A stretch of 46,183 nt of DNA from Verrucomicrobiota bacterium (GTDB lineage Bacteria; Verrucomicrobiota; Verrucomicrobiia; Limisphaerales; UBA9464). The position numbers were made by a program, and so were the translations under genes. The notes beneath the pieces were generated by a model. That model was not told the origin of the DNA, did not search any database, and worked only from the letters and a program-made list of their open reading frames with translations. Each line of letters starts with the position of its first letter. Position 1 is the stretch's first letter. Below, in pieces: positions 9,301 through 45,378 of this stretch. The stretch spans positions 1-46,183 of the forward strand of contig JARXAF010000090.1 of assembly GCA_029865985.1 (NCBI GenBank), written 5' to 3'.

Positions 9301-9537
9301 GCGTTCGCCCCAACTTTCGTTCAAATAAGGCTCTAAAATGGGGGCGGGCAGCACTGGGGCGGTTTTCTCGACTTGAGCTTGGGTGCTCCTCGTCAAAAAC
9401 AACGCCAACAACGCCAGCACCGAAAACCACGCGCTCATCGCGGGCCACAACACAGTGCCCACCCGAGAAACCGGACGCCTGGGCCCAACGGATCGCCCCC
9501 CCTGGGGCCATTTTGGACCATCAGGGTTGTTCTCCAT
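6319..9537 (-). CDS. Two-component sensor histidine kinase with periplasmic propeller (Reg_prop/Y_Y_Y type)
   Basis: 1072 aa from the ATG at 9537; a GTG at 9561 would add 8 residues. Order: N-terminal signal/membrane segment (WFSVLALLALFLT), a long periplasmic region with propeller-like repeats (SNDGLLWVGSQYGLRIFDG, HEDHLGNWWVGGE, DELGGIWAGLD) and a following Y_Y_Y-like beta domain, a membrane helix (NIFIAAVLSLVGVAFWHFY), a HisKA_3 dimerisation domain with phospho-acceptor H883 in RSLHDDLGNRLSEI, and a HATPase domain (ELTRNAVKHG, VEDNGCGFD, SGRGLSSI). In Bacteroidetes and Verrucomicrobiota such propeller kinases often sense oligosaccharides; the ligand here is not predictable. It forms an ATGA-coupled operon with the downstream response regulator. 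Confidence 0.92.
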   Translation of the reverse strand: MENNPDGPKWPQGGRSVGPRRPVSRVGTVLWPAMSAWFSVLALLALFLTRSTQAQVEKTAPVLPAPILEPYLNESWGERDGLPGGPVQALWESNDGLLWVGSQYGLRIFDGKTFRIPEELADLKDESIEDIFTDGSGLLWMQGRKAIFSIQLRSDGVYEKSRFEGSNLAKDGLGWVWFKTGSEIRGRRGTMEASFPSEPASKSKSVGLKLDLWGGREGGVYRVDDQGTLWRGTPQGWTQIPGPLASGERVYRCGMFEDRQQRIWLSILTESKQLKLFTRTDGIWQRQPDDEASLFRSERCYHDTSRGAFLMGSDQGLIYHIQHEGKDRRIYKAFEYSEPIQAIHEDHLGNWWVGGEVSGLRLISRDPIRLLTLKGTPGAVPMDSRGGQTVEVIGRREMFVVLSAVSDDHGGFWVAAGSHGLMIRHGDELKAVTNASPQLPVDGYVSSLAVSPRGLVVGGRGLLLILDRDGRAVPTQDYSGTTKGRRVISLAVDELGGIWAGLDIGNIVHIPAETSALRVIPTEGPVFDLATQKDRVWVIDGKILRCWSKNRWENISEELNRVNSLQSLFVDRQDRLLVVGGSQVAIQNGQAVAILGSQQGVFPRLNSKWFQDQQSNLWLATDEGCLEVNPTWLNEYFANKRGHPESKVDAEVIRRVVHFSSFSDIRLTSKRSGKPCVLPSGEVALPSNKGVAVFRLDAEENKAWQPRVGIGQIYTGANGYFNGVVSMNPLVIPGGVDILLGFRRNLDATLRPPLIRCSLAQESIDWRYSRDGEPIQMANPASTLSPRNIQIKLDGGAWSDLVLRVQTKQFGGDWKDAPSISVKLDQYQQLVKRWRNIFIAAVLSLVGVAFWHFYRSTLQKRQLRIRTLEGIQEDRLRIGRSLHDDLGNRLSEIQLLAEQVKNASGLEFTTLGMVDRIHGRSVQAVESLDKMVWLLRDVSESAEDVAKHLELLAKSYLDVCAVGLDFKMLSGHEHEISGWVRQLLIAATQELTRNAVKHGRATELEMHLRVSDDSVSFRVEDNGCGFDLQTALLSGRGLSSILNRAKDFGGTTSVLSRPGCSVILIQVPRLVV

Positions 9538-9561
9538 GAAACGCTGGTGTGTCGTGTTCAC

Positions 9562-18065: not shown

Positions 18066-19094
18066 ATGCTAGCGCAGATCAAAGGTCTCTTCTCGAACGA
18101 CATCGGAATCGACCTCGGAACAGCCAACTCCCTCGTCTACGTCAGGGATCAGGGGATTGTTTTGCGTGAACCCTCGGTGGTCGCCATCCAAGCCGGCACC
18201 ACCAATGTCTTGGCCGTTGGTGAAGAAGCCAAGCGGATGCTCGGGCGCACTCCCGGCAACATCGTTGCCATACGCCCCATGAAGGACGGCGTCATCGCCG
18301 ACTTTGAAATCACGGAAGCGATGCTGCGCCACTTCATCCAGAAGGTGCACCACCGCAAGTTGATCATGCCGCGGGTGGTTGTCGCCGTCCCCTCGGGCAT
18401 CACCGAGGTTGAAAAACGAGCCGTCAAGGACTCCGCCACCCACGCCGGGGCCCGCGAAGTGTACCTCATCGAGCAACCGATGGCATCGGCTATCGGCGTG
18501 GGTCTACCCGTCCACGAACCTTCGGGCAACATGATCGTCGACATCGGCGGTGGCACCTGCGAGATCGCGATCATCTCGCTGGCAGGCATCGTCTTCAGCC
18601 GCAGCGTTCGCGTGGGCGGCGATGAATTCGACGAAACGATCGTCGCGCACATGAAGCGCGCACACAATTTAATGATCGGCGAACGTACCGCCGAGGAGAT
18701 CAAGATCCGTGTCGGGTCGGCGTTTCCGTTGGACCAGGAATTGACCATGGAGGTGAAGGGCCGCGATCTCAGTGCGGGCCTCCCCAAGACGGTCGTCATC
18801 CGTTCCGAGGAAATCAGGGCCGCCCTGCAAGAACCGCTCTCGAGCATTTTGGAGTCTGTCCGCATCACGTTGGAACGGTGCCCCCCGGAATTGTCTGCCG
18901 ACTTGGTGGACAAGGGCATCATGATGGCCGGCGGTGGAGCGCTATTGCGCAATATCGACCGCTTGGTCTCTCAGGAAACCGGCCTCCCGGTCCACATCGC
19001 CGACGATCCGTTGAGCGCAGTGGCCACGGGCACCGGACGTGTGCTGCAGGAACTCTCCTTCCTTCGAAGAGTCGCTTCGTCCACGTCGACCTGA
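18066..19094 (+). CDS. mreB: Rod shape-determining actin homologue MreB
   Basis: 342 aa, family length. It forms membrane-associated filaments that organise lateral-wall synthesis. ATPase motifs: phosphate-1 [15 protein letters not shown] near the N-terminus, phosphate-2 [15 protein letters not shown] near residue 160, and adenosine motif [10 protein letters not shown] near residue 290. The N-terminal [14 protein letters not shown] fits a membrane-binding start. It is the first gene of the elongation operon mreB-mreC-mreD-mrdA-rodA-rng, with mreC 36 bp downstream. Confidence 0.97.
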
Positions 19095-19130
19095 TCTCCC
19101 CGGTGTGCGTTCGTCCTGAACGGATAGAAC

Positions 19131-19937
19131 GTGCTGAAGCGGACCCATTACCTTGCATTGGCCGGCGTAGGACTCCTGACGCTGGGCCTGCTGAATTTGC
19201 CTGTGTCTCTCCAGACGCAGGTCAAGTCGGCTATTGGTGCTTCGTTCCTGCCTCTCTTCGGCATCCGTGCGGCTTCAGACTCCTTGCTGGATCGAGCCGG
19301 TTACCAGGTGCTTCCCCGTTCCACCCTCATCGACAACCTCCTGCGTCTCGAACGCGAGAACGCTGAACTCAAGGTTTCGGCCCTCCAAGGAACGGATGCA
19401 TTGGCCGAAAATCAGCGACTGCGGGCTACCATCGGCGCAGCACCGAGAGGCCCCTGGCATCTCAAACTGGCTCGAGTAGTCGGTCGTGATCCGACGACGT
19501 GGTGGCGAACCCTTCAAATCAACCTCGGTTCCCGAGACAACCTGAAACCCGATCACGTGGTGATGAGCGGCGAGGGACTGGTGGGCCGGATTAGTCAGGC
19601 GGGCCTGACCCACTCGCAAGTCGCCCTCGTGGGTGATGCCGAATGCGGGGTGGCCGTGGTGGTCAAGGAAACCCGCGATTTGGGCATCATCAAGCCGGGG
19701 CAAACCCTCTCAGGTGATGGCGGTCTGGTGGAAATGACCTTGCTGCAGAACTGCCCTGGGATCATGGCCGGGCAGGTGGTGCTGACCAGCGGTCTGGGCG
19801 GAATCTTTCCAGCAGGACTTCCTGTTGGAACCATCGTGGACACACGGAACGAGAACGGCAACGTGTTCACCACCGCCCGAATCCGTCTGGCGGCCAACCT
19901 CAACCGTCTGGAAGAAGTGTGGGTGCTTCAGCCATGA
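19131..19937 (+). CDS. mreC: Rod shape-determining protein MreC
   Basis: 268 aa from a GTG start. One N-terminal membrane helix (HYLALAGVGLLTLGLLNL) is followed by a short coiled coil (LLRLERENAELKVSALQG) and the two-barrel MreC domain, with typical stretches VVGRDPTTWWRTLQINLGS, GLVGRISQ and GLGGIFPAGLPVGTI. It links cytoplasmic MreB to the periplasmic PBP2. The stop overlaps the mreD start in ATGA (19934-19937). Confidence 0.95.
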   Translation: MLKRTHYLALAGVGLLTLGLLNLPVSLQTQVKSAIGASFLPLFGIRAASDSLLDRAGYQVLPRSTLIDNLLRLERENAELKVSALQGTDALAENQRLRATIGAAPRGPWHLKLARVVGRDPTTWWRTLQINLGSRDNLKPDHVVMSGEGLVGRISQAGLTHSQVALVGDAECGVAVVVKETRDLGIIKPGQTLSGDGGLVEMTLLQNCPGIMAGQVVLTSGLGGIFPAGLPVGTIVDTRNENGNVFTTARIRLAANLNRLEEVWVLQP

Positions 19938-20497
19938 ACCGCTTCACCTTGATCTTCCTGTTTCTGGTCACCTGGCTGTCAGTTTTCGCCCAGACCCAGT
20001 TTTCGACGCTTCGACAACTCCTCTCCGTCCCCTTGGCACTGAGCCCGGCTCTGGTCTGCTATGCGGCATTGACCCACGGATTTGGCGTCACCATCAGCCT
20101 GGCCGTTTTGAGCGGTCTGTGGATTGATTCACTCTCGGCATCGCCACTCGGGGTCAGCACCATGCCGCTGTTCCTCCTGGGGTTCACCCTGCAACTGCAA
20201 CGCCACCTCATCCTGCGAGATCAAGGTTTCGCTCAGTTTTGGATCGGGCTCGGAGCTGGCGCTGGTGTGCCGCTCCTGACCTTGGGAGTGTTGTCCCTCA
20301 CCCGTTCCCAACCGGTCACCGGCGGGTTCACATTCATCCAACTTCTGCTGATGGGGCTGCTCAATGGAGTCGCCTGCCCTGCCCTCTTCTGGATGTTCGA
20401 TTTCCTGCACCGGATCTTCGACTACCGCCCCCTCACCACCTCCAGCTTCCGCACCGATCGGGAAACCGTCCGGGGCCGTCAATTCCGCCCCCGTTGA
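19934..20497 (+). CDS. mreD: Rod shape-determining protein MreD
   Basis: 187 aa from the ATG at 19934, which overlaps the mreC stop; the track's GTG at 19919 lies further inside mreC. It is very hydrophobic with about five membrane spans (LIFLFLVTWLSVFAQ, VTISLAVLSGLWIDSL, MPLFLLGFTLQLQ). MreD sequences diverge strongly, so the call rests on length, membrane topology and position between mreC and the PBP2 gene. The basic C-terminus is RETVRGRQFRPR. Three bases separate it from the next gene. Confidence 0.88.
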   Translation: MNRFTLIFLFLVTWLSVFAQTQFSTLRQLLSVPLALSPALVCYAALTHGFGVTISLAVLSGLWIDSLSASPLGVSTMPLFLLGFTLQLQRHLILRDQGFAQFWIGLGAGAGVPLLTLGVLSLTRSQPVTGGFTFIQLLLMGLLNGVACPALFWMFDFLHRIFDYRPLTTSSFRTDRETVRGRQFRPR

Positions 20498-20500
20498 ACC

Positions 20501-22525
20501 ATGCTCATCTTTGACCAGTTCAACAAGGGAGAGCGGCCGCTGCGGTGGATGGCCGGAGTGATCGGCGCAGGCTTGTTGCTGCTGCTCATCGGCCTCCTGC
20601 GGGTGCAAATCCTCAGCCACCACCGTTTCGAACAATCCCTGCAAACCCAGAGTTTTCAATCCGTGCGGGTTCCCGCGCTGAGAGGACGCATTCTTGATCG
20701 GAATGGACGCGAATGTGTGGGCAATACCCCGCGATACCGTCTGGATGTCTATCTGGAGGCCCTGAGTCGGGATTTTTCGAAGGAATACGGACGATTGCGT
20801 CGTGAAGTCATCGCAGCGCGCGGAGGAACCAACCCAGTGTCCCCGGGGCTCTTGCATCGGATGATGTCCAAATTCCGTCGGGAGGCGCCCCGAATCCTGA
20901 TCCGACCCGAAGAAAACACCCTCCTCTGGAGACAAGCCCGCTACAACGTGGTGAGCAATGTCGTCACGAAGGTGGCCGCCAAGATCGGACTGCCGTTGAC
21001 CCTCACCGAATCCGAACTCCAACGACACTGGGCCAACACCCGAGCCCTGCCGCTGGCGGTTCTCAAGAAATTGACTCCGCAACAAGTGGCCCTCCTGACC
21101 GAACAATCGTGGTCCATTCCTGGAATCAGAACGGAGCTGCAGGCGGTCCGCAATTATCCACACGGCCCCTTGGCGGCCCATGCCCTGGGGTATTTGGTCC
21201 GGGCAGATGACTTCGAAGGCGACGAGGGTGAATCCTTCGACTACCGGCTTCGAGACTACAAGGGAGCTGCCGGTCTCGAGGCGGCTTTCGACGCCTCTTT
21301 ACGGGGCGTCTCCGGCACCAAGAGCATCCTCGTCAACAGCGACGGATATCGTGTGGGTGAGACCGTCACGGCCGAACCGGTGCCGGGTCAGAATTTGATC
21401 ACCACTCTGGACATCGATGTCCAAAAGGCGGCCGAGGCGGCCCTGTCGGCGGTGAGCGGCGAGGAGCGCGGAGCGGTGGTCGTTCTAGATGCCCGCAACG
21501 GCGATGTGTTGGCCATGGCCAGTGCCCCCAGCTTCGATCCGGGCGAATGGATCGATGGCATCAGCCGAAACCGTTGGACCAATTACTATGACGTACCCAA
21601 GCGGACCCCTCTGATGAATCGCGCCACCGATGGTGCCTACTCCCCCGGTTCCACTTTCAAAATCGTGACCGCACTGGCTGCCTTGGAAAACGGACTGGAT
21701 CCCAACCAGGTGCAAATCGTTGAACCCAATCCGTCCAAGCCGGGCAAGGGGATCTACCACCGCGGGAACATCAAAATCGAGGATACTGCACCTCCGGGTC
21801 CCTACGACTTTCGTCGCGCCTTCATCCGATCCTCCAACGCCTACTTTATCCAGCTGGGGTTGGATGCCGGATACGACCGCCTGCTCACCACGGCCCACCG
21901 GTTCCATTTCGGCGAGCAGACACGCATCCAACTCCGACCGACCGAGGAACGTTCTGGTTGGATGCCCGAACCGGCCGAAGCCCGGGCCGAACGCTGGCCC
22001 CAAGGCCGGTTGGCCAACTTCAGCATTGGACAAGAAGTCACGGTGACTCCGCTGCAATTGGCAGTCATGGTCGCCGCAGTGGCCAATGGCGGCACGGTCT
22101 ACTACCCCCGCTTGGTGGATCGCCTGGAGTCCGGAGATCCCCTGAGCGAGGAGGCTCCCAGCACCATTCGGCCGGGTCAGGTGCGCAGTCGACTGGAAAC
22201 CCGACCGGAATACCTCGCCCACATCCGCGCCGCCATGCGGGATGACGTCCTGGACACCGAAGGCACCGGCACCAGCGCCCGCGTCACCGATTACTCCGTC
22301 TGCGGCAAGACCGGGACGGCCGAGATCAAGGGCAACGGCGTGAAGGACAAGGTGACTTGGTTCGCCAGCTTCGCTCCGTTTGAATCCCCCCGCTACGCGG
22401 TGGTCGTCATGGTGGAAAGCGGTGCCTCCGGCGGGCGGACCTGCGGCCCGGTGGCGCGGAAGATCTATGAACACCTGCGGGGACGAGATACGGGCTCTGG
22501 CCGGCCCATCGCCATGAACCCATGA
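20501..22525 (+). CDS. mrdA: Penicillin-binding protein 2 (elongation transpeptidase)
   Basis: 674 aa class B PBP that cross-links peptidoglycan during elongation together with RodA. N-terminal membrane helix (VIGAGLLLLLIGLLRVQIL), pedestal region with RGRILDRNGRECV, then the transpeptidase: catalytic S384 in SPGSTFKI (S-x-x-K to K387), the SSN triad near 443 in RSSNAYFI, and KTGT at 603-606. The pedestal is somewhat longer than in proteobacterial PBP2. It lies between mreD and rodA, and its stop overlaps the rodA start (ATGA, 22522-22525). Confidence 0.95.
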   Translation: MLIFDQFNKGERPLRWMAGVIGAGLLLLLIGLLRVQILSHHRFEQSLQTQSFQSVRVPALRGRILDRNGRECVGNTPRYRLDVYLEALSRDFSKEYGRLRREVIAARGGTNPVSPGLLHRMMSKFRREAPRILIRPEENTLLWRQARYNVVSNVVTKVAAKIGLPLTLTESELQRHWANTRALPLAVLKKLTPQQVALLTEQSWSIPGIRTELQAVRNYPHGPLAAHALGYLVRADDFEGDEGESFDYRLRDYKGAAGLEAAFDASLRGVSGTKSILVNSDGYRVGETVTAEPVPGQNLITTLDIDVQKAAEAALSAVSGEERGAVVVLDARNGDVLAMASAPSFDPGEWIDGISRNRWTNYYDVPKRTPLMNRATDGAYSPGSTFKIVTALAALENGLDPNQVQIVEPNPSKPGKGIYHRGNIKIEDTAPPGPYDFRRAFIRSSNAYFIQLGLDAGYDRLLTTAHRFHFGEQTRIQLRPTEERSGWMPEPAEARAERWPQGRLANFSIGQEVTVTPLQLAVMVAAVANGGTVYYPRLVDRLESGDPLSEEAPSTIRPGQVRSRLETRPEYLAHIRAAMRDDVLDTEGTGTSARVTDYSVCGKTGTAEIKGNGVKDKVTWFASFAPFESPRYAVVVMVESGASGGRTCGPVARKIYEHLRGRDTGSGRPIAMNP

Positions 22526-23733
22526 CGACTTCCCTCCATCAGAACCGCCGAGCCGAGGCAGCCATCCTGTGGCCCCTGTGGCTCTCGGTGTTGGGACTGA
22601 TGATCATCAGCGCGATGTTCATCTTCAGCACCACCGGCAGCGCCGAGTTGGCGAGGGGGGCATCCTGGTACCAGTGGACGGCCACTCGCCAAGTCATGGC
22701 CTTTGGCATTGGCATCCTCGCGGTCCTCGGCATGAGCCTTGTCGACTACGGCCGACTGGCCCGTTGGGCGATGGTCGGCTACTGGGTTTCCATCACCTTG
22801 CTGGTCGCGGTCTATATCCTGGGCACGTCGCGCAATGGCGCACGACGTTGGTTGGATATCGGCCCACTGCAGTTTCAGCCCAGTGAACTCGCCAAGCTGA
22901 CCTTTCTCTTCGCCATGGCCAACTTCCTGGCGCGTCCCGCCGCGGAATTGCGTTCCCCGGGAATCTTCCTGAAGGCCTTGGTCCTCACACTTCTCCCACT
23001 GGGGCTCATCCTCAAGCAACCCGACCTGGGCTCGTCCCTCGTCTTCTTGCCCATCACCTTGGTCATGATGCTCGTCGCGGGAGTCCCTCAACGCTTTATC
23101 GCCAAACTCCTGGGCGGAGCTTTTCTCATCGTCACCTTGATCGCTGTGGACATCTTCATCGCGCCGGCCAACTGGCGACTGATCCGATTGCAAGACTACC
23201 AGCGCGAGCGGTTGCTGGTGTATTTTGATGCCGATTTCGCGCCCGCTTCAGCGACCCCGGAGCTGCGTCAGCGCGCCGCGCAGCGCAAACGACAAATGTC
23301 CTGGAATGTCGAACAGGCGTTGATCTCCGTCGGGTCGGGAGGTTTCACCGGCAAAGGCTGGCGGGAAGGCACCCAGCATCGACTCGGATACCTGCCCCGC
23401 TTGGGAGCCCACAACGACTTCATCTTCTCGGTCATCGCCGAGGAACGCGGTTTTGTCGGCAGCGTGGCGGTGATCACCTTGTACGGCATTATCCTCTTCA
23501 GCGGCATCAAGACCGCGAGTGAATCGCGCGACCGACTGGGTCGCTTGCTCGCCGTCGGTGTCGTCACCCTCTTCTTCATCCACGTCTTCGTGAACATCGG
23601 CATGAACATCAAATTGATGCCGGTCACGGGCATTCCACTGCCCCTGCTCAGTGCAGGCGGAACCTCAGTGCTGTGCTCCCTGATCGCGGTCGGTGTTCTT
23701 CAAAACATCCATTTGTACCGCAAACGGTACTAG
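22522..23733 (+). CDS. rodA: RodA, SEDS peptidoglycan glycosyltransferase
   Basis: 403 aa polytopic membrane protein that polymerises lipid II glycan strands, paired with PBP2. SEDS signatures: NGARRWLDIGPLQFQPSELAKL-type segment near residue 110, KQPDLGSSLVF, AHNDFIFSVIAEERGFVG near 295, and the C-terminal VNIGMNIKLMPVTGIPLPLLS segment. About ten membrane spans. Its position after mrdA and the elongation context identify it as RodA, not FtsW (a second SEDS gene lies at 45446). Confidence 0.95.
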   Translation: MTTSLHQNRRAEAAILWPLWLSVLGLMIISAMFIFSTTGSAELARGASWYQWTATRQVMAFGIGILAVLGMSLVDYGRLARWAMVGYWVSITLLVAVYILGTSRNGARRWLDIGPLQFQPSELAKLTFLFAMANFLARPAAELRSPGIFLKALVLTLLPLGLILKQPDLGSSLVFLPITLVMMLVAGVPQRFIAKLLGGAFLIVTLIAVDIFIAPANWRLIRLQDYQRERLLVYFDADFAPASATPELRQRAAQRKRQMSWNVEQALISVGSGGFTGKGWREGTQHRLGYLPRLGAHNDFIFSVIAEERGFVGSVAVITLYGIILFSGIKTASESRDRLGRLLAVGVVTLFFIHVFVNIGMNIKLMPVTGIPLPLLSAGGTSVLCSLIAVGVLQNIHLYRKRY

Positions 23734-35211: not shown

Positions 35212-35721
35212 ATGGCCACCGCAGGTGACATCATGGAGACAGGAACCGGTTCTGCTGGAGTGAATCCAGCGGCGAATCGGCCCCGTTTCACTTGGCGATA
35301 CGACCACAAGCTCGACGCTCAAGGCCGCGTTCCCTTGCCGGCAAAATGGCGCCCCGAAGACCCTTCCAGCCTGTCCCTCATGGCGGTGATGATTAAGCAC
35401 CCATCGGAAGCGGAGTTCGTCATGGTGCTTCCAGTTGAGCAGTTCGAGCGGTTCAGCAACCCGATTTGTCAGGGCGACTTCACGGATCCGCTGCGGTTGG
35501 CCGAGCGCCACGACTATGTGGACCGCATCATCGAACTGGAACTCGACAGCGCCGGCCGCATTTCTCTGCCCAAAGAGATGCGCAGCGCAGCCGCACTGAC
35601 CGACGACGTCCTTTTCGTCGGTTGCATCGACCGATTCGAGGTCTGGAACCCCGAGTCTTATCAGATGGCTCGCCTTTCGGAACGCCTTCTCAAGAAGGTC
35701 CAGAACCCCCAAAAAACATGA
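35212..35721 (+). CDS. mraZ: Transcriptional regulator MraZ
   Basis: 169 aa. Two SpoVT/AbrB-like half-domains carry the MraZ signatures: HKLDAQGRVPLPAKWR near residue 32 and LELDSAGRISLPKEMR near residue 108. An N-terminal extension of about 25 residues (MATAGDIMETGTGS) precedes the fold; a start at Met8 is possible. MraZ usually regulates its own dcw operon. It is the first gene of that cluster here, and its stop overlaps the next ATG (ATGA, 35718-35721). Confidence 0.93.
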   Translation: MATAGDIMETGTGSAGVNPAANRPRFTWRYDHKLDAQGRVPLPAKWRPEDPSSLSLMAVMIKHPSEAEFVMVLPVEQFERFSNPICQGDFTDPLRLAERHDYVDRIIELELDSAGRISLPKEMRSAAALTDDVLFVGCIDRFEVWNPESYQMARLSERLLKKVQNPQKT

Positions 35722-36128: not shown

Positions 36129-37070
36129 GTGTCCCTGTTTTCACATCAACCCGTTCTGCTGACCGAAGTGGTGACTTCACTCCAACCCAAGGCTCACGGC
36201 CGCTACCTGGATGGCACTCTGGGCGGTGGTGGTCACGCTTCGGCGATTTTGGAGGCGAGCTCTCCGGATGGTTTTCTCTACGGATGCGACCGGGACGCCG
36301 AAGCTCTGGCGGCCGCCCATGATCGTTTGAAACCTTACGGCGACCGATTCAAGACCCGTCAGTGCAATTTCACCGAGGCAGACCGTTGGATCGCACCCCA
36401 GTCCTTGGACGGAGTTCTCCTCGATCTCGGTGTCAGTTCCCACCAACTGGACACGCCTGAGCGCGGGTTCTCTTTCCAAAAAGACGGTCCCTTGGACATG
36501 CGCATGGACCAGAACGGGACAGGCCCCACCGCGGCGGACTTGGTCAACAGCCTGCCCGCAGATGAATTGGCCGACTTGTTCTGGAAACTGGGGGATGAGC
36601 GTCATTCGCGCAAAATCGCCCGAGCCATCGAAACCGAGCGCCGCAATCGCCCCTTCACGACCACCGGGCAACTGGCGCAGTTCATCGAGCGTATTTGCCC
36701 CCGTCGCGGAGCACCGACCCATCCCGCCACCCGCTGTTTCCAGGCACTGAGAATCGCCACCAACGATGAGCTGACATCGGTCCAAGACGGGCTGGAACGG
36801 GCCTTCCGTCTCCTGATTCCGGGCGGGCGGCTCGCAGTCATCAGCTTCCAATCCCTCGAAGATCGCATCGTCAAAGAGTTCATGCGCCGGGAAGCCCGGG
36901 ACTACGACTTCGAAGGGCCGGAAGATCATCCGGATTTTCGGCACCCTCGACATCCCCGGGGCAAGGAACTCGCCAGAAAAGGTCTCGTGGCTTCGGAGTC
37001 CGAACTCGACACCAACCCAAGAGCCCGCAGTGCACGACTGCGCGTGCTGGAACGCCTCCCGGAACCATGA
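36129..37070 (+). CDS. rsmH: 16S rRNA (cytosine(1402)-N4)-methyltransferase
   Basis: 313 aa from a GTG start. SAM-binding motif YLDGTLGGGGHASAIL near the N-terminus, FTEADRWI, LDLGVSSHQLDTPERGFSF near residue 100, GPLDMRMD, and the late ISFQSLEDRIVKEFMR segment are all characteristic. It methylates C1402 of 16S rRNA. It lies in its usual position after mraZ in the dcw cluster and overlaps the next gene in ATGA (37067-37070). Confidence 0.96.
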   Translation: MSLFSHQPVLLTEVVTSLQPKAHGRYLDGTLGGGGHASAILEASSPDGFLYGCDRDAEALAAAHDRLKPYGDRFKTRQCNFTEADRWIAPQSLDGVLLDLGVSSHQLDTPERGFSFQKDGPLDMRMDQNGTGPTAADLVNSLPADELADLFWKLGDERHSRKIARAIETERRNRPFTTTGQLAQFIERICPRRGAPTHPATRCFQALRIATNDELTSVQDGLERAFRLLIPGGRLAVISFQSLEDRIVKEFMRREARDYDFEGPEDHPDFRHPRHPRGKELARKGLVASESELDTNPRARSARLRVLERLPEP

Positions 37071-37459
37071 GCACCAAAAACCGTTCCGAAATGCGGCTGG
37101 GGACCATCGTGCGAGCCATGCTGGGTTCCGCACTCATCGCAACTTTGGGATTCTTGTGGATCCTTCAAAGCCGGGCCCACCAACGGCTTCAAGATCAGAT
37201 CAGCCAATTTCGCACCCAATGCACCGTGCTGGAGCGCTCCATCGGAAGGGATCAGCAGGAGATTGAAAAACTCCTCACCCGACCGGCTCTCATCCGCCGT
37301 ATCCAGGAACTCAAGCTGGGGTTGACCAACATCGCCTACCGCCAGGTGATCCATGTCACCAACCCCACTCCCGGCAGCATCCCCTCTTCCGAACTCACCC
37401 GTCATGCGGTTCCACCAACTGCCCCCGCCCCACCTCTGGCGGTGGCCGTTCCTCGCTGA
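37067..37459 (+). CDS. ftsL: FtsL-like division protein
   Basis: 130 aa bitopic protein: basic cytoplasmic N-terminus, one membrane helix (MLGSALIATLGFLWILQ), then a periplasmic coiled coil (QDQISQFRTQCTVLERSIGR), ending in a proline-rich tail. FtsL sequences are poorly conserved; the call rests on this architecture and on the position between rsmH and ftsI. It would recruit FtsI/FtsW through FtsB-like partners. Confidence 0.8.
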   Translation: MSTKNRSEMRLGTIVRAMLGSALIATLGFLWILQSRAHQRLQDQISQFRTQCTVLERSIGRDQQEIEKLLTRPALIRRIQELKLGLTNIAYRQVIHVTNPTPGSIPSSELTRHAVPPTAPAPPLAVAVPR

Positions 37460-37467
37460 AACCTGAA

Positions 37468-39633
37468 ATGACCCAGCCGACACCCCCCGACAAGACGCTG
37501 ACTGGACTGACCGTCCTGTTCTGTGTCGTGTTCGCCGGGCTGGCCGGTCGGTTGATTTACATTCAAGGCATTCGTCCCGATTCACCCCGGTACACACTGG
37601 GAGCCTCTCCGGCTCGCACCAGCTACATCCCGGCTCCTCGAGGAGAACTGCTCGATCGACGCGGCGAACGACTGGCCTACTCGCAATACGCGTACAACCT
37701 GCGAGCCAATCCAGTGGTGATCAGCAATCAAGCCCCTCATTTGGCGGCCCTGCTTTCACCGCTGTTGTCCATTCCCGCCGGCGTTTTGGAAGACCGCCTG
37801 AATGTGCGGCCCGAGCTGCGTTGGAAGCCGCATTTCAACACCAACTCCACCGGTTTGGTCGCCACCCAGTGGGTACAGATTCTCTACACCAACCAGAGTG
37901 TTCTGCTGGCTTCCAACCTGTCTTACGTGGAATGGACGCGGGTCCACACCAATCTGAAAACCTTCCGCTCCCCGGAGGAACGACAACTTCTGGCGGCATC
38001 GGCGGCGGTGGCCCATCGCAGGACCAACAGTCCCCCCATCGCTGCCTGGAACCTGCTGGCCAAATATCGTTTCCGGAAGGAAATCGCCCGAGACAACCGG
38101 TCGATCAACCTCGCGCTGAAACGGATCCAACCCCAATTGAAGGAAGTGCGGGAAAACGGGATCACTGCCGAGATCATGGAGCGGCGCGTGATGCCGCACG
38201 GCGAACTGGCCACTCCACTCCTGGGGACCACCACCAACGGGGTCATTCCCATCGTTGAATACCGCACGGCGACCAACCGCATCCGAGTCCGCACCCGAGA
38301 ATTGCCGCCCGAAATCCACGGTGCCGACGGCATCGAGCGGCAGTTCAACGACGAGCTTGAAGGTGTCGCCGGACAGGCAGTGATCCGACGGGGCAAAGGA
38401 CGCGAATTGGCCGGCAGTCGTGAAATGGATTTACCTGCTCAGCCCGGCGCCAATGTCCGGCTGACCATCGACGCCAACCTCCAGTACGTCGCGGAAAACG
38501 CGTTGCGACAGGGGATGTCCAAGCTCAAGCCCAACTGGATGTCGGCCATTCTGGTCCGGCCGTCGACCGGAGAAATTCTCGCTCTGGCCAACGCCACGGA
38601 CCCCGACTACTCCCCGGCCCACCAGCCCAACTCAGCGGCACCGAGCGGCGGCCCGCGCAAACCCCAGCATCGCAATCATGCGGTGTCCGAGTTGGTGGAA
38701 CCCGGCTCCACCTTCAAGCTGGTCACCTACTCGGCAGCCCTGGAAGCGCTCCCCGGACGCAACCTGTCTCCCAGTTCTCGGATCGACTGCGAAGGCGGCA
38801 CTTGGCGACCGCCGGCCGGACGCAAGAAACCCATCGCCGATGCACGCGGCCACAAACTCCATACGGTCACCCTCGAGGAAGCCTTCGCTGCATCCTCCAA
38901 CGTCGGTGCCGCCAAACTGGGATATGCCCTCTGGGATCCCGCCGCACCGCCGCGATCCACCGCACTCGTGAAATACGCCGAAGCCTTCGGTTTCACCCGA
39001 CGGACCGGCATTCTCTGCGGCGGAGAGCCCAACACACGAATCCCCGCCTGGGACGGCCTCGGCACCCAACTCATCCTCTCCTACGGCTACGGCATCTACG
39101 CCACCCCTCTCCAAATCACCATGGCCTACGCCGCCGTAGCCAATGACGGCATCCTCATGGAGCCCATGCTGGTGAAATCGGTGGAAAGCCCCTCGGGCAG
39201 CGTGATTCGCCATATTGCCCCGCGTCAGGTAGGCCGAGCGGTTCGCTCCGAAACGGCCAAACAACTGGTGCAACTCCTGACCGCCGTGGTGAGCCCCAAA
39301 GGCACTGGCAAGGATGCCGCACTCGACGACTACACGGTCGCTGGCAAGACCGGAACGGCCAACAAGATGACCCAGGCTCACATGGCCGCCGGCGTCACTG
39401 CCCATTTCAGTACTTTCGTGGGATTCCTTCCAGCGGAGAACCCTCAGATTTGCCTGCTGGTCTGCGCAGACGAACCCACCGGATCGGACGGACGGGCCGC
39501 CTACGGAGCCGCCTGCGTGCCGGTCTTCAAGGAAATTGCCCGAGAGACCGCCAGCTATCTGACCATCCCGCCATCCCCCGTCCTTGCGGTCAGTGGGTCT
39601 GCCGCCGAACGCACCGCCCTATCGCGTCACTGA
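37468..39633 (+). CDS. ftsI: Division-specific transpeptidase FtsI (PBP3) with long pedestal
   Basis: 721 aa class B PBP; proteobacterial FtsI is near 590 aa. N-terminal membrane helix (TGLTVLFCVVFAGLAGRLIYI), RGELLDRRGERLAYS pedestal motif, then an enlarged region at about 95-270 with no recognised domain, then the transpeptidase: S414 in EPGSTFKL, SSN triad at 476-478 (AASSNVGAAKL) and KTGT at 627-630. It cross-links septal peptidoglycan together with FtsW. The next gene starts one base after the stop. Confidence 0.95.
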   Translation: MTQPTPPDKTLTGLTVLFCVVFAGLAGRLIYIQGIRPDSPRYTLGASPARTSYIPAPRGELLDRRGERLAYSQYAYNLRANPVVISNQAPHLAALLSPLLSIPAGVLEDRLNVRPELRWKPHFNTNSTGLVATQWVQILYTNQSVLLASNLSYVEWTRVHTNLKTFRSPEERQLLAASAAVAHRRTNSPPIAAWNLLAKYRFRKEIARDNRSINLALKRIQPQLKEVRENGITAEIMERRVMPHGELATPLLGTTTNGVIPIVEYRTATNRIRVRTRELPPEIHGADGIERQFNDELEGVAGQAVIRRGKGRELAGSREMDLPAQPGANVRLTIDANLQYVAENALRQGMSKLKPNWMSAILVRPSTGEILALANATDPDYSPAHQPNSAAPSGGPRKPQHRNHAVSELVEPGSTFKLVTYSAALEALPGRNLSPSSRIDCEGGTWRPPAGRKKPIADARGHKLHTVTLEEAFAASSNVGAAKLGYALWDPAAPPRSTALVKYAEAFGFTRRTGILCGGEPNTRIPAWDGLGTQLILSYGYGIYATPLQITMAYAAVANDGILMEPMLVKSVESPSGSVIRHIAPRQVGRAVRSETAKQLVQLLTAVVSPKGTGKDAALDDYTVAGKTGTANKMTQAHMAAGVTAHFSTFVGFLPAENPQICLLVCADEPTGSDGRAAYGAACVPVFKEIARETASYLTIPPSPVLAVSGSAAERTALSRH

Positions 39634-39634
39634 C

Positions 39635-40825
39635 ATGCTGACCGCGGAACCCATCCTCTCACCAGCGACCGAGGCTTCGGCTACGAAGGCATCGACGGCC
39701 GCATGCCGTCCAAACCGCTCCGCCCACAGCGGCAGCGAAACCTCGAAGTTCCCGCGGCGCATCGGCACAGCGGATCGCTCAGTGATCGATCCGCTGGCCA
39801 TCCGGCTTCGGCAAGCCCCCAGCGAACATCCGCTGCAACGACTTGATCTGTGTCGGATCGCCAAACAAGGCCGCATCTCCGCAGCGCTTGCCTGCTTCGT
39901 TCATGCGCTGCTCACCCAGGCGGGGCGTCGACCAGCCTTGCTCACTCCCGAAGGCGGACTCATCGCTGGCCGACTTTTTCCGCAACGACCGACCATCAGC
40001 GACGCTCCCGAGTGGGAACGACTCTTGGCGACCCATGTCCGCTCGGGGGGTGATTGCCTGATCACCGAAGAGGACGCGGAAATCCAGGAGTTGCTCAGTG
40101 GAGTGACGGCCCGCTCCGATTTCCAACAACCGTCTACGCCGCGTCTCTGGATCAAGCCGCAGGCATTGCATTGGCGCGGAAGCCGATTGCAAGTCCTCAG
40201 CACCGACGGCAGAGCCCGAATGGCCCACCTGCCACTGGTCGGCGGATCCAATCTCAAGGCCCTCGATCTCGCCCTGAATCTGGTCATCAACGCGGGCTGC
40301 TGCCCAACCCAATCGTTGGCCACCCTGCCCCTGTTGGAGGCTCCGACTGGGCTCCTCGAACCGGTCCATGCCGGGCAGCCCTACGGTGTTTTCGTGGATC
40401 GCGCCGCATCGGCCGCCGATCTGACGGAATTGCTCAATGAGGCACGCACCTTGTCCGGCCGTCGCATCCTTCTCGTGGTCGGAATCCGCGGAAGCACGAC
40501 GCTGGAAGAACGCCAAGCCATGGGTGCTGCGGCGGCGCTGGCAGACGAGGTCGTTTTCACCAGCGACAATCCTCGCCACGTGCCAGTACCGGCCATTCTG
40601 GCTGACTTGCAATCCGGACTGGGCGGCAAAGCCATCGAAGAACCCGACCGCCACACGGCGATCACGACCGCCATCCGGATGGCCAAGTCCGATGACCTCG
40701 TGCTCATCGTGGGCAAAGGCGGCAAACCCCTTCAGGAAATCGGCGGTGCGGTCATTCCCTGGGATGATCGGATGCATGCTCTGGACGCACTGGCCGGGCG
40801 CGGATGGGTGGGAGATTCACTATGA
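39635..40825 (+). CDS. Degenerate MurE-like protein (Mur ligase C-terminal domain kept, P-loop lost)
   Basis: 396 aa from the ATG at 39635, which directly follows the ftsI stop; the track's 39584 start lies inside ftsI. Residues 235-390 align well by eye with MurE: LLEPVHAGQPYGVFVD, TSDNPR at 309-314 and GKGGKPLQEIGG at 360. Upstream, the ATP-binding TGTNGKTT is replaced by RIAKQGRISA (74-83), VDYAHTP by VDRAASA, GRFN by GGSN, and the UDP-binding N-terminal domain with its DSR motif is missing. The middle domain is also about half normal size. It probably cannot be an active ligase. It sits in the murE slot and is ATGA-coupled to the next gene. Confidence 0.75.
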   Translation: MLTAEPILSPATEASATKASTAACRPNRSAHSGSETSKFPRRIGTADRSVIDPLAIRLRQAPSEHPLQRLDLCRIAKQGRISAALACFVHALLTQAGRRPALLTPEGGLIAGRLFPQRPTISDAPEWERLLATHVRSGGDCLITEEDAEIQELLSGVTARSDFQQPSTPRLWIKPQALHWRGSRLQVLSTDGRARMAHLPLVGGSNLKALDLALNLVINAGCCPTQSLATLPLLEAPTGLLEPVHAGQPYGVFVDRAASAADLTELLNEARTLSGRRILLVVGIRGSTTLEERQAMGAAAALADEVVFTSDNPRHVPVPAILADLQSGLGGKAIEEPDRHTAITTAIRMAKSDDLVLIVGKGGKPLQEIGGAVIPWDDRMHALDALAGRGWVGDSL

Positions 40826-41574
40826 GCACATTGCCCAAACCCCATTTGCTCGGTCTCTTGGCGGGCCTATTCATGGCCTCGGGCCTGGTCGTCTCCACGA
40901 CGCTGCTCACGCGGACCTGGCTCAAGGTGGCTGACGCTGAATCCATCACCGTGACCGGATCGTCCCGTCGAAATGTGAGCTCCGACCTCGTCGTGTGGCG
41001 TGGTTCGCTAACGGTCGAAAGCCCGACGCTCATGGCCGCACAAGCGCTGCTGAGCCAACAAGAAAGTGTTACCCGCGGTTTCCTCACAACCCAGGGCGTC
41101 ACCAACACCCATTTCCATCCGATCGCCATCCAGCGCATCCAAGTCCGCGGCGCCAAGCAATCCGGCGAAGCGGAGGGCGAAGCAGAAAACCCCACGACCC
41201 GCTTCCGCCTCAGCCGAACCATCGAGGTGCGTTCGGGCGACATCGACACGGTGCTGAGCATGGATGCCAAGACCTCTCAATTGGTCAATCAGGGCATCGA
41301 GTTCACCGCAACCCCTCCGGAGTTTGTCTGGACCAAGGCCGGTGAAGCCAAGATCGAGATGCTCGCCGATGCAGCCCGCGATGCCCGCGCCCGAGCCGAA
41401 CAAATCGTCTCCCAAGGCGGACGCTCCATCTCGCGGATGCGTTCGGCCAAGATGGGCGTCTTCCAAGTGACTCCCCTTTATTCCACCCAGAACACCTGGG
41501 ACGGAATGAACGACACCACCTCGCGGGAAAAAACCGTCACGGCCGTGGTGAATGCGAGCTACGCCCTGAAATGA
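40822..41574 (+). CDS. SIMPL-domain (DUF541) envelope protein
   Basis: 250 aa from the ATG at 40822, which overlaps the previous stop (ATGA, 40822-40825). One N-terminal membrane/signal helix (LLGLLAGLFMASGLVVSTTLL), then the SIMPL fold: SITVTGSSRRNVSSDLVVW at the start, repeated helices such as AKIEMLADAARDARARAEQI, and the C-terminal EKTVTAVVNASYAL strand. Similar proteins are periplasmic and of unclear function (oxidative or envelope stress). A SIMPL gene between the murE and murF slots of a dcw cluster is unusual. Its stop overlaps murF (ATGA, 41571-41574). Confidence 0.85.
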   Translation: MSTLPKPHLLGLLAGLFMASGLVVSTTLLTRTWLKVADAESITVTGSSRRNVSSDLVVWRGSLTVESPTLMAAQALLSQQESVTRGFLTTQGVTNTHFHPIAIQRIQVRGAKQSGEAEGEAENPTTRFRLSRTIEVRSGDIDTVLSMDAKTSQLVNQGIEFTATPPEFVWTKAGEAKIEMLADAARDARARAEQIVSQGGRSISRMRSAKMGVFQVTPLYSTQNTWDGMNDTTSREKTVTAVVNASYALK

Positions 41575-42974
41575 TGGAACCGGTGACACTCCAATTCATC
41601 GCCGAAGCCTCCGGGGGGATTTTGCATCCTCTCGAGGCGGGCTGCATGACGGTGTCCGGCCTCTGCACCGATTCGCGCCGTCTCCAAGCAGGCGAACTGT
41701 TCTTGGCGCTCCGCGGTGAACGCTTTGATGGGCACGATTTCCTCAAAGACCCCACTCTCAAGACCGCCGCGGCCGTCTTGATTTCTGAAGATCGACGGGC
41801 CGACGTGCCTCCTGGTTTGCCCGTCGTCACGGTCCAGGACACCCGCGCCGCCTTGGGACGCATTGCCGCCGCCTACCGGAAAGGGTTTTCAATTCCAGTG
41901 TTTTGTGTGGCCGGCTCCAACGGCAAGACGACCACCAAGGAATTGCTCGCGGCCTTACTGGAGACGCAAATCCCGACCCTCCGTTCCCAGGCCAGCTTCA
42001 ACAACGACATCGGCGTCCCGCTGAGCCTTCTCGGAATCAACCCCTCTCACCGGGCGGCCGTTCTGGAAGCCGGCACCAATCATCCCGGGGAACTGGCCCC
42101 GCTGATCCAGCAAATCGCCCCTCGATACGGGTTGGTCCCACAAATCGGCCGTGAGCATCTGGAACATTTCGGCGATCTGAACGGGGTCGTCGACGAGGAG
42201 TGCGCTCTGGGCGAAAACCTGCCCGCCGACGGCATCTTGTTCCTGAATGGTGATTGCGAAGCGGCTCGACCGCTGGCCGCCCGCACTCATGCCCGCGTGG
42301 TCCGCACCGGCTTCGGCCCAGAGAATTCATGGCGTGCGCGCATTCTGGAAAACGGCTGGAACTTCACCCGGTTTGAAATCATCGCACCCCAGGCCGAATG
42401 GTGCGGGGTTTTTGAGATCGCAGTACCCGGCCGTCACATGGTCTCCAACGCCACCTTGGCACTGGCAGCCGCCGCTGAATTGCACATTCGGCCCGAGGCA
42501 GCCCGACAGGCACTGGCCCGTTTTTCCGGAGCCAAACAGCGCCTTCAATGGTCCGAGCAGCGCGGAATCCGCTGGCTCGACGACACGTACAACGCCAACG
42601 CCGATTCCACCCTGGCCTCGCTCCAGACACTTTCAGATCTCCCGTGCACCGGGCGCCGGGTGGCCGTGTTGGGCGACATGGCTGAACTGGGGGAACACAC
42701 CGACGAAGCCCATCGGGAAATCGGAGCCGCGGCCCATCGGCTGGGCATTGACCTGCTGGTTTGCATCGGACGCTCGGCCAAGTACACTGCTGCTGGAGCT
42801 TTCGGAATGCATCAGGTGCTCGCGTTCCCCGATGTGGAGCAAGCCGTGCCTGCGCTGCGACCCCTCATCCGATCCGGTGACTGCATTTTGGCCAAGGCCT
42901 CCCGGAGCAGCCGACTCGAACGTCTCTTCGAGGCGCTCAAAACAGAAACGGTTGAATGCGGGGATAACCGCTGA
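41571..42974 (+). CDS. murF: UDP-MurNAc-tripeptide--D-Ala-D-Ala ligase
   Basis: 467 aa, normal length. N-terminal domain with CTDSRRLQAGELFLALRGE (substrate-binding DSR motif), P-loop VAGSNGKTTTKELLAALL near residue 112, central SFNNDIGVPLSLL, EAGTNHPGELAPL, and a complete C-terminal domain (WLDDTYNANADSTLASL, VLGDMAELGEHT). It adds D-Ala-D-Ala to complete the UDP-MurNAc pentapeptide. All catalytic motifs are intact, in contrast to the MurE-like gene two positions upstream. Confidence 0.96.
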   Translation: MMEPVTLQFIAEASGGILHPLEAGCMTVSGLCTDSRRLQAGELFLALRGERFDGHDFLKDPTLKTAAAVLISEDRRADVPPGLPVVTVQDTRAALGRIAAAYRKGFSIPVFCVAGSNGKTTTKELLAALLETQIPTLRSQASFNNDIGVPLSLLGINPSHRAAVLEAGTNHPGELAPLIQQIAPRYGLVPQIGREHLEHFGDLNGVVDEECALGENLPADGILFLNGDCEAARPLAARTHARVVRTGFGPENSWRARILENGWNFTRFEIIAPQAEWCGVFEIAVPGRHMVSNATLALAAAAELHIRPEAARQALARFSGAKQRLQWSEQRGIRWLDDTYNANADSTLASLQTLSDLPCTGRRVAVLGDMAELGEHTDEAHREIGAAAHRLGIDLLVCIGRSAKYTAAGAFGMHQVLAFPDVEQAVPALRPLIRSGDCILAKASRSSRLERLFEALKTETVECGDNR

Positions 42975-42980
42975 CCCAGC

Positions 42981-44105
42981 ATGCTCTACAAGCTTTCAGA
43001 ATTATTCCCGACAGTCCCTTGGACGGTGTTCAAGTATGTCACCTTCCGCAGTGCTGGCGCCGCCATCACCGCCTTGGTGCTGAGTTGGCTCATGGGTCCT
43101 CGAGTCATCGAGGGTCTTCGGAATCTCAAATTCCGCCAGGACTACCAGCCCAAGGATGTTCGCAGTCCGGGCGATGCCACAGCCGCAGCCGCCGATCTGG
43201 CCAAACGGGGCACCCCCACCATGGGCGGAGTCCTGATCATGCTCGTCTTGGACATCTCGGTCTTCCTCTGGGCCCGCCCTAACATCTTGGTGATCCTCAC
43301 GATGCTTTCCCTGCTGGTGTTGGCCTTCTTGGGCTTCTACGACGATTGGCTAAAGGTCAGCAAACAAAGCGCAGCGGGCGCTCAGTCCCGGGTAAAGTGG
43401 ATTGTCCAAATCCTGCTGGCACTGGTGGTTGGAATCTATCTCTGGCAATTGCCCTCCACCCGCGGCTTGGTGACCGACATCCAAATCCCCTTCTTCAAGG
43501 ACCCCATCCTACGAGCCGTCCCTTGGATCGGCATTCCCCTAGTGGCTCTGACCATCATCGGCAGTTCCAATGCAGTGAATTTGACCGACGGCATGGACGG
43601 TCTGGCCATCGGCTGCACCCTGATTGTGGCCACGGTGATGCTCATTCTGACCTACCTGTCCGACAACGTGAAGTTGGCCACCTATCTTCAAATCCCCCAC
43701 GTCCGTGGTGCGAGCGAACTGACGGTTGTTTGTGCGGCCTTCATCGGAGCTTCCTTGGGTTTTCTGTGGTTCAACTGCCATCCGGCCGAGGTCTTCATGG
43801 GCGACACCGGCTCGCTGGCCCTGGGCGGCGCACTGGGCATCATGGCCGTCCTGATCCACCAACCGCTGGTACTCCTCATCGCTGGCGGGGTTTTTGTGGC
43901 CGAAGCTGCCAGCGTGATGCTTCAGGTGGGCTGGTTTAAATACACCCGACGCAAGTACGGCGAAGGACGCCGCATCTTCCGCATGGCGCCCTTGCACCAC
44001 CATTTCCAGAAGCTGGGATGGAAGGAATCGAAAATCGTCACACGGTTCTATATCGCCGGAATTCTCTGCGCCGTGGTGGCGTTGAGCACCCTCAAGATCC
44101 GATGA
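42981..44105 (+). CDS. mraY: Phospho-N-acetylmuramoyl-pentapeptide transferase (lipid I synthase)
   Basis: 374 aa polytopic membrane enzyme that moves phospho-MurNAc-pentapeptide to undecaprenyl phosphate. Signatures: KRGTPTMGGVLIM, FYDDWLKVSKQ (DD motif), NLTDGMDGLAIG, MGDTGSLALGG and MAPLHHHFQKLGWKESKIV (HHH). About ten membrane spans. It lies 6 bp after murF. Its stop overlaps an ATG at 44102 (ATGA). Confidence 0.97.
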   Translation: MLYKLSELFPTVPWTVFKYVTFRSAGAAITALVLSWLMGPRVIEGLRNLKFRQDYQPKDVRSPGDATAAAADLAKRGTPTMGGVLIMLVLDISVFLWARPNILVILTMLSLLVLAFLGFYDDWLKVSKQSAAGAQSRVKWIVQILLALVVGIYLWQLPSTRGLVTDIQIPFFKDPILRAVPWIGIPLVALTIIGSSNAVNLTDGMDGLAIGCTLIVATVMLILTYLSDNVKLATYLQIPHVRGASELTVVCAAFIGASLGFLWFNCHPAEVFMGDTGSLALGGALGIMAVLIHQPLVLLIAGGVFVAEAASVMLQVGWFKYTRRKYGEGRRIFRMAPLHHHFQKLGWKESKIVTRFYIAGILCAVVALSTLKIR

Positions 44106-44503
44106 GCGACACCCACCACAACAACCCCAGTTCCGGTCCATCCCAATCCCATGGATTACCGGCTCGAATCTCTGTCCGGATGTTCCTTGATCGCTCCGGT
44201 TTCGGTTGTTTAATGATGGCTCGTCGGCGGCACTCCGTTTCCCTATCGAAACCGTGTCGCATCGCCGCGGCGATTCGTGCATACCCAGCCACAAGCCTCA
44301 TTCTACCATCCACGATCCACGGTTTCGACCGAACTGGATGGGCACCGCTTTTTGGAAACAGTCCTGACAACCGTTTCCGGTCCGCGCTCAACGCGGTCAT
44401 TACCCCTTTCGTCTCGACCCGGGTGGAGGACCCGGTTCGGGACGAATCCGACACAACTCCATCCTCGATCTACGACGCACCGTCTACCTGCCTAATCCCA
44501 TGA
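44102..44503 (+). CDS. Uncharacterised 133-aa ORF in the murD slot
   Basis: No family recognised. The ORF starts in ATGA overlap with the mraY stop and ends in ATGA overlap with the LysM gene start (44500-44503), so it bridges the two exactly. In many dcw clusters this slot holds murD (about 450 aa). The translation (Ser/Arg/Pro-rich) shows no Mur-ligase motif; a stretch [19 protein letters not shown] only faintly recalls the start of MurD. Codon use is less biased than its neighbours, with TTA, CTA, TCT and CCT codons. It may be a real small gene, a relic of an internal deletion of murD, or spacer DNA that happens to be open. Confidence 0.4.
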
Positions 44504-45378
44504 GCATCCCCAACTCCCCGCTGCTGCCTGGCTCCAAACTGGAACAGGCCGCCAAGAGCAAATCCACCTTCAGCATCGCTGCCTTCATTTTCAGCGCCCA
44601 CGTGGCGGTGTTCCTGGTGGTCTTGCTCAATGGTTGCAACAAGGAGAGTTCCGCCACCAATGCGGAGCCGTCCGCCGCCACCAATCAGATCGATTTGGCG
44701 GTTCAACCCGGAGCCGGCGACACCAACGCCATGGCCCTGCCCCTTGGATTGGATACCAACACCGTGGCCAACCCTCCGGGCGGCGCAGTGACCTTCCCTC
44801 CGTTGGCCAGCGTGACCAACGCACCCGTGGCTCCGCCGAACTTGGGCGTCACCCCGCCGGTTGGATCTCCCACCGGTGACACGACGGCCAATGAAGCCGC
44901 CGGTGCCGGCTCAGAATACAAGATCAAGGGCGGCGACATTGCCTACAACATCGCCAAGACCCACGGGGTCTCCCTCAAGGCGCTCAAGGATGCCAACCCG
45001 AATGTGGACCTGGGCAAGTTGAAGCCGGGGCAGACGATCCAAATCCCGGCCGCCAGCGCCTCCAACTCGAAGGCTGCGGCGAACTCGGTCAAGGCCGACT
45101 CCTCTAGCGAACCGGCTGCAACGGGTGCGACCACGCCCTACACGGTCAAGGGCGGAGACACCCTCGGCAAGATTGCCAAGAAGCACGGGACAACGCCCAA
45201 GGCTATCCGCGCCGCCAATGGTTTGAGCAGCGACAAGATCAACGTCGGTCAGAAGCTCAAGATTCCCGGCAAGGGTGCGGCCGCTGAGACGGCCGAGCCG
45301 ACCGCGAAGGCCCTGACGGTGCCCGAGCCCGCTGCGCCCATCCCCGCCCCCCTACCGGTGCCGGGCACGGGCCGCTAA
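44500..45378 (+). CDS. Membrane-anchored protein with two LysM domains
   Basis: 292 aa. One N-terminal membrane helix ([19 protein letters not shown]), a Pro/Thr/Asn-rich periplasmic linker (about 50-140), then two LysM repeats: [20 protein letters not shown] near 145 and [20 protein letters not shown] near 210, ending in a Pro/Ala-rich tail. LysM binds GlcNAc-containing glycan, so this should tether envelope to peptidoglycan or guide septal enzymes. The Cys in [11 protein letters not shown] could be a lipobox, but the helix starts about 25 residues in, so a membrane anchor is more likely. It precedes ftsW. Confidence 0.9.

Follow-up and report, generated by a model that had tools for sequence, protein, structure and literature searches.

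The open reading frame at 39635-40825 of the window (the whole stretch of 46,183 nucleotides analyzed here, one entire contig of the draft Verrucomicrobiota genome G000, with 216 contigs and 92% completeness) is, as far as can be judged from its sequence, a MurE-family pseudoenzyme, in which the ATPase site disappeared long ago while the gene has been retained in the dcw operon. We assign a probability of about 60% to the overall reading that this dead MurE is kept in a bacterial family (f1) in which the stem peptide of the wall is no longer assembled residue by residue. The reference enzyme is the UDP-MurNAc-L-Ala-D-Glu:meso-DAP ligase, as known from E. coli (b0085), M. tuberculosis (2wtz) and Verrucomicrobium spinosum (PMC3681970).

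The Pfam scan confidently identified the Mur_ligase_C domain (E-value 4e-18, 66.8 bits vs. the cut-off of 28.4), and reported neither Mur_ligase_M nor the N-terminal UDP-binding Mur_ligase domain. The TIGR01085 (murE) profile scored 132 bits vs. the cut-off of 257, with only positions 246-471 aligned. The HHalign comparison of a profile built from 32 sequences of the pseudo-MurE family with an intact MurE from the same order yielded an end-to-end alignment (probability 100, E-value 2e-57), with ~60-90 residues deleted from the pseudo-MurE, which takes out the DH and the carbamoyl-lysine (Mg-binding) region. The AlphaFold model, generated from a 28-sequence alignment, is confident for residues 54-396, while residues 1-53 are predicted to be disordered (pLDDT < 50). 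The top PDB matches reported by Foldseek for this model were all MurE (E-value 2e-25 to the MurE structure 8g6p); among the best fold matches the mycobacterial, E. coli, S. aureus and T. maritima enzymes are represented, and so is the MurE-like subunit of the plastid RNA polymerase. The initial annotation of a MurE-like protein in the murE slot is thus borne out by the TIGR01085 profile, the HHalign alignment and the fold match.

Comparison with the canonical MurE revealed that the operon place, the C-terminal domain, the overall fold and the DNPR and GKG motifs are alike, whereas the P-loop, the carbamoyl-lysine segment and the UDP domain are missing, and the DYAHTP and GKGHE motifs are altered (Table 1). 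The two substitutions read initially from the letters (AKQGRISA at the P-loop, VDRAASA for VDYAHTP) are both correct by alignment, and the absence of the UDP-binding N-terminal domain, also proposed there, agrees with the missing Pfam match and the disorder of residues 1-53. The P-loop and the carbamoyl-lysine segment are absent from every aligned f1 sequence. Together with the missing N-terminal domain this substantiates the assignment as a pseudoenzyme of the MurE family, which on these grounds should be incapable of acting as a canonical ligase. The suggestion that it binds a DAP-containing precursor is doubtful: DNPR is retained across most of the genus, but not throughout the family, and R390, E469 and the UDP-binding domain are lost.

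Table 1. Features of the window, with positions counted from its first nucleotide.
Feature	Position	Strand	Basis
mreB-mreC-mreD-PBP2-rodA elongation operon (intact lateral-wall machinery)	18066..23733	+	Pfam
mraZ	35212..35721	+	Pfam MraZ
mraW/rsmH	36129..37070	+	tblastn vs. same-order dcw cluster
ftsL-like	37067..37459	+	lies after mraW and before ftsI, a place conserved in f1; without Pfam match
ftsI (PBP3)	37468..39633	+	Pfam Transpeptidase and PBP_dimer
Pseudo-MurE, 396-aa MurE homolog without ATPase site	39635..40825	+	Pfam, TIGR01085, alignment, AlphaFold/Foldseek, HHalign
Disordered, fast-evolving tail replacing the UDP-binding N-terminal domain (residues 1-53)	39635..39793	+	pLDDT, dN/dS
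Lost P-loop position, AKQGRISA for TGTNGKTT	39860..39883	+	aligned with MurE of E. coli and of the same order
Mur_ligase_C domain, residues 242-362	40358..40720	+	Pfam
VDRAASA replacing VDYAHTP	40394..40414	+	alignment
DNPR motif, retained in this copy	40565..40576	+	alignment
GKGGK replacing GKGHE, DAP-contacting Glu lost	40712..40726	+	alignment
SIMPL (DUF541) gene	40822..41574	+	Pfam; alternative start at 40804
murF, intact	41571..42974	+	TIGR01143, 359 bits, above cut-off
mraY	42981..44105	+	tblastn
Vacated murD slot, ~400 bp, non-coding	44106..44499	n/a	murD occupies the same place in sister families
LysM protein	44500..45378	+	Pfam LysM
ftsW, cut by contig end	45446..46183	+	Pfam FTSW_RODA_SPOVE

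The first half of the dcw cluster lies in the window in the order mraZ, mraW, ftsL, ftsI, pseudo-murE, SIMPL gene, murF, mraY, LysM gene and ftsW. The frame of 396 codons, ftsI directly before it and the ATGA coupling to the next gene, all described initially, were verified from the coordinates: pseudo-murE starts 1 nt past the ftsI stop (39633), and the overlap at 40822-40825 couples it to the SIMPL gene. In many members of the family the latter separates pseudo-murE from murF, and it persists in two species (G029, G063) in which pseudo-murE is lost. The vacated murD slot revealed no MurD remnant, tRNA or Rfam match. In several genomes of the family it spans 335-450 bp and is non-coding, and within the genus it contains conserved blocks, GGCGATTCGTGCATACCC at 44269 and GGTGGAGGACCCGG at 44422, one of them partly common to another genus; the slot could possibly provide a promoter, a leader or an RNA that serves the LysM-ftsW half. 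Elsewhere in the window, a sensor kinase with a two-component-regulator propeller (6319-9561) adjoins a LuxR-type response regulator (5570-6322).

The identical 396-aa form is found in seven further species of the genus (G002, G006, G010, G015, G017, G001 and G014; 70-72% identity), and this shared architecture rules out a frameshift or sequencing error. Other members of the genus (L018-L022) possess the N-terminal domain, hence its loss is limited to a subclade; the remaining genera of the family have in this slot a protein of 430-450 aa with the N-terminal domain, in which the P-loop is equally gone. The frames are open in all complete copies, and R113, Q248, D255, R339, K361 and Q367 are invariant across the 32 sequences. 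For residues 61-396 the dN/dS values (Nei-Gojobori) are 0.05-0.14 in most close pairs; most of these pairs give 0.1-0.28 for MurF, and the disordered tail (residues 1-60) of the pseudo-MurE gives 0.4-0.95. The gene is therefore maintained, with an open frame and under purifying selection in the relatives, as the initial annotation had supposed from the intact frame. A slowly eroding relic, held in place only by the translational coupling of ftsI to the SIMPL gene and murF, would account for the loss of the N-terminal domain in one subclade, the erosion of DNPR and other motifs, and the absence of the gene from five genomes of the family in which the slot could be read (G019, G027, G029, G033 and G063). 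The latter observation indicates that the pseudo-MurE is not essential family-wide. However, the low dN/dS of the core, the confidently predicted fold, the invariant residues and the open frames argue against decay; the selection test rules out a decaying pseudogene and largely refutes the relic explanation, which we regard as very improbable.

The initial expectation that a genuine MurE would be encoded elsewhere is contradicted by the genome searches. The TIGR01085 search of the G000 genome reported only the pseudo-MurE and fragments of MurF and Mpl, and the Mur_ligase_M search (E-value ≤ 0.01) matched just two, namely MurF, encoded in the window, and Mpl, on contig C65; replacement by another member of the Mur-ligase family is thus rejected for this genome. 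Among 50 genomes of the family (9 genera; 28 genomes of good quality, i.e. ≥ 90% complete and ≤ 5% contaminated), not a single one encodes MurE or MurD above the curated cut-offs. In 13 genomes besides G000 an unbroken contig runs mraY-LysM-ftsW-murG without murD, and in 12 of these it continues to ddl with no match to MurC; in one example (L107) the interval between MurG and Ddl is occupied by murB, with ddl as the next gene. The family retains mraY, murG, murB, ddl, murF, ftsI/W and mreBCD/PBP2/rodA, and as far as tested it is devoid of MurC too, with Mpl and MurF left. Many of the genomes sampled are draft MAGs, and the 92% completeness of G000 would likewise allow intact murC, murD and murE to reside on unassembled contigs. 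Nonetheless, the score of 0/50 including 28 genomes that are ≥ 90% complete, the gene order that continues without interruption over the vacant murD and murC slots, and the fact that the same searches detected intact MurE in 65 and MurD above the cut-off in 86 sister genomes make the probability of such an artefact almost negligible.

Mpl was found in 48 of the 50 genomes, including all 28 of good quality, and is present in a single copy per genome, except for one case split into two fragments. The Mpl of G000 scores 452 bits against TIGR01081 (equivalog cut-off 388.7), with an intact P-loop TGTHGKTT and the signature TAFFDKRSK, which corresponds to the (S/T)AFFDKRSK signature of the Mpl family (PMC3060825). 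Its identity across genera (76-83%) is above that of MraY, Ddl, MurG and MurF. The ratio of the Mpl and MraY distances is ~0.71 within the family vs. 0.94 between families that possess MurC, MurD and MurE, and although these values come from few, non-independent pairs, they suggest that Mpl evolves somewhat more slowly relative to MraY in the family. The comparison of Mpl neighborhoods revealed no partner genes conserved between genera, beyond single genera. The known Mpl enzymes (TIGR01081; PMC3060825), with which the Mpl of this family shares the signature motifs and whose equivalog cut-off it exceeds, are dispensable recycling enzymes that act alongside MurC, MurD and MurE; in this family, unlike in the known cases, Mpl appears to be the sole ligase left able to put a stem peptide onto UDP-MurNAc.

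We propose the following pathway: MurA and MurB would make UDP-MurNAc (MurB is present, MurA is assumed), Mpl would load a ready-made stem tripeptide onto it, MurF would add D-Ala-D-Ala supplied by Ddl, and MraY, MurG, FtsW/FtsI and RodA/PBP2 would finish the wall. The joining of recycled tripeptide to UDP-MurNAc by Mpl is an established route in E. coli (PMC9928106), and Mpl accepts tri-, tetra- and pentapeptides (PMC3060825). That Mpl carries the stem-peptide flux in the family is, in our judgment, quite probable. Since recycling alone gives no net growth, the tripeptide needs an outside source or an undiscovered synthase; our analysis identified neither. The cell would most likely obtain the tripeptide by scavenging, both from the muropeptides of other bacteria and from its own turnover, and if Mpl does carry the flux, we slightly favor such an exogenous origin over a synthase.

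The pattern extends beyond the family. Among 146 genomes of the order, Mpl is found in 134, MurE above the cut-off in 68 (3 of them dead by motif), and MurD above the cut-off in 86, of which 24 were counted as pseudo (23 by motif and 1 by family membership). About half of the 146 genomes lack intact MurC, MurD and MurE, with Mpl near universal; the MurC counts are soft, as at the level of the order MurC was tested only at E-value ≤ 1e-62 and is undercounted, being missed in some genomes that possess both MurD and MurE. In the MurD sequences of families f2, f6, f22, f28, f43, f51 and f60 most of the P-loop is retained, whereas the Mg-binding Glu is gone, and in several the carbamoyl-lysine is missing as well; f57 combines a dead MurE with a MurD without the lysine, and f15 and f33 possess dead MurEs. 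Where tested, the pseudo-MurD genes exhibit dN/dS values of ~0.1-0.3, i.e. purifying selection. In the wider set of MurD reading frames inspected (L122-L126 and L135-L156, from f2, f6, f8, f13, f20, f22, f28, f33, f43, f51, f57 and f60), most of the P-loop and often the D-Glu-binding SPACSSFDQF are kept, while most lack the catalytic Glu and/or the carbamoyl-lysine, forming a pseudo-MurD counterpart of the pseudo-MurE. The MraY+MurF tree groups f1 with f2 and f57 (support 86/98), thus MurE may have been inactivated only once, early on, in the lineage leading to f1 and f57; a parsimony reconstruction over 30 rows required 4 state changes, with weak support for the deep forks of the tree used.

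The glutamate racemase was found in 38 of the 65 genomes with intact MurE, compared to 3 of the 81 without it; these three genomes fit the simple model poorly. Many genomes with both MurD and MurE lack a MurI-type racemase, which implies that they need another source of D-Glu, e.g. DapF, which in Chlamydia can serve as the D-Glu racemase (PMC5885031). Five further genomes (G050, G088, G101, G114 and G147) possess an apparently intact MurE, no MurD and no detected MurC, and are unexplained by the simple Mpl model; Mpl might load L-Ala-D-Glu there, followed by addition of DAP by MurE. These data also bear on the possibility that an undiscovered tripeptide synthase operates in the order, with the pseudo-MurE (or, in other families, the pseudo-MurD) as its substrate-binding subunit. 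Genomes of 3-6 Mb from many families have commonly lost MurC, MurD and MurE, and total dependence on neighbors would be costly for them, and the pseudo-MurD under purifying selection still possesses the P-loop and mostly the D-Glu-binding motif. On the other hand, no candidate ligase was found in the dcw or Mpl neighborhoods, and the glutamate racemase is almost always lost along with MurE; we therefore consider a synthase unlikely, though the most credible of the alternatives.

As to the dead MurE itself, a protein-protein role fits best, because the subclade of the window lacks the UDP domain. It would most likely be a non-catalytic part of a cytoplasmic Mur assembly, which holds or positions MurF, MurG or Mpl at the membrane. 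The scaffolding of the divisome, proposed initially, or of the Mur enzymes is plausible, and we put it forward tentatively, at somewhat below even odds. In Bordetella MurE-MurF binds MurG, and in Thermotoga MurG binds MurD, MurE and MurF (PMC6420597). The MurE-MurF fusion of Bordetella pertussis with its MurG scaffold (PMC6420597; PDB 8f5d) places MurE inside a physical assembly, but both halves of the fusion are active enzymes, unlike the pseudo-MurE.

Another use of the fold would be regulatory, the pseudo-MurE sensing the levels of UDP-MurNAc-peptide or nucleotides, or binding a different machine. In plants, the MurE-like protein PAP11 is built into the plastid RNA polymerase as a structural subunit. 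PAP11 (PDB 8r5o, 8w9z) ranks with the closest matches in fold and sequence beyond the bacterial MurE and offers a precedent for a MurE homolog as a structural part of another complex; it belongs, however, to another machine and lineage, whereas the pseudo-MurE has kept its place in the dcw operon and is reduced further. The loss of the UDP-binding domain in the subclade of the window speaks against sensing, and the place in the dcw operon beside murF favors a role in the wall, hence we judge regulatory reuse to be rather unlikely and prefer the scaffold.

Tannerella forsythia (PMC5388701, PMC5790795) is alike in being a walled bacterium without early steps of peptidoglycan synthesis that scavenges muropeptides, but it lacks the synthesis of amino sugars (MurNAc auxotrophy), whereas the family of the window lacks the stem-peptide ligations and possesses MurB. 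We give an even chance to the generalization that this family and about half of the sampled genomes of the order make their wall via Mpl-loaded tripeptide in the absence of MurC, MurD and MurE, with one dead Mur ligase (MurE in this family, MurD in others) repeatedly kept as a structural part of the Mur assembly. These three ligases are regarded as universal and essential in wall synthesis and as drug targets, and they are essential in the related Verrucomicrobium spinosum. The dcw genes were described as highly conserved in Verrucomicrobiota in a 2025 survey (PMC12283558). Our search of literature titles and abstracts found no description of Mpl replacing MurC, MurD and MurE, although such absence is not proof. 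If true, a lineage without these three ligases, in which Mpl has been promoted, would represent a second way of making the stem peptide, and would imply that it either depends on muropeptides shed by the community or possesses a tripeptide synthase yet to be discovered. The dead MurE and MurD that persist would allow the structural role long suspected for Mur ligases to be examined in nature, apart from catalysis.
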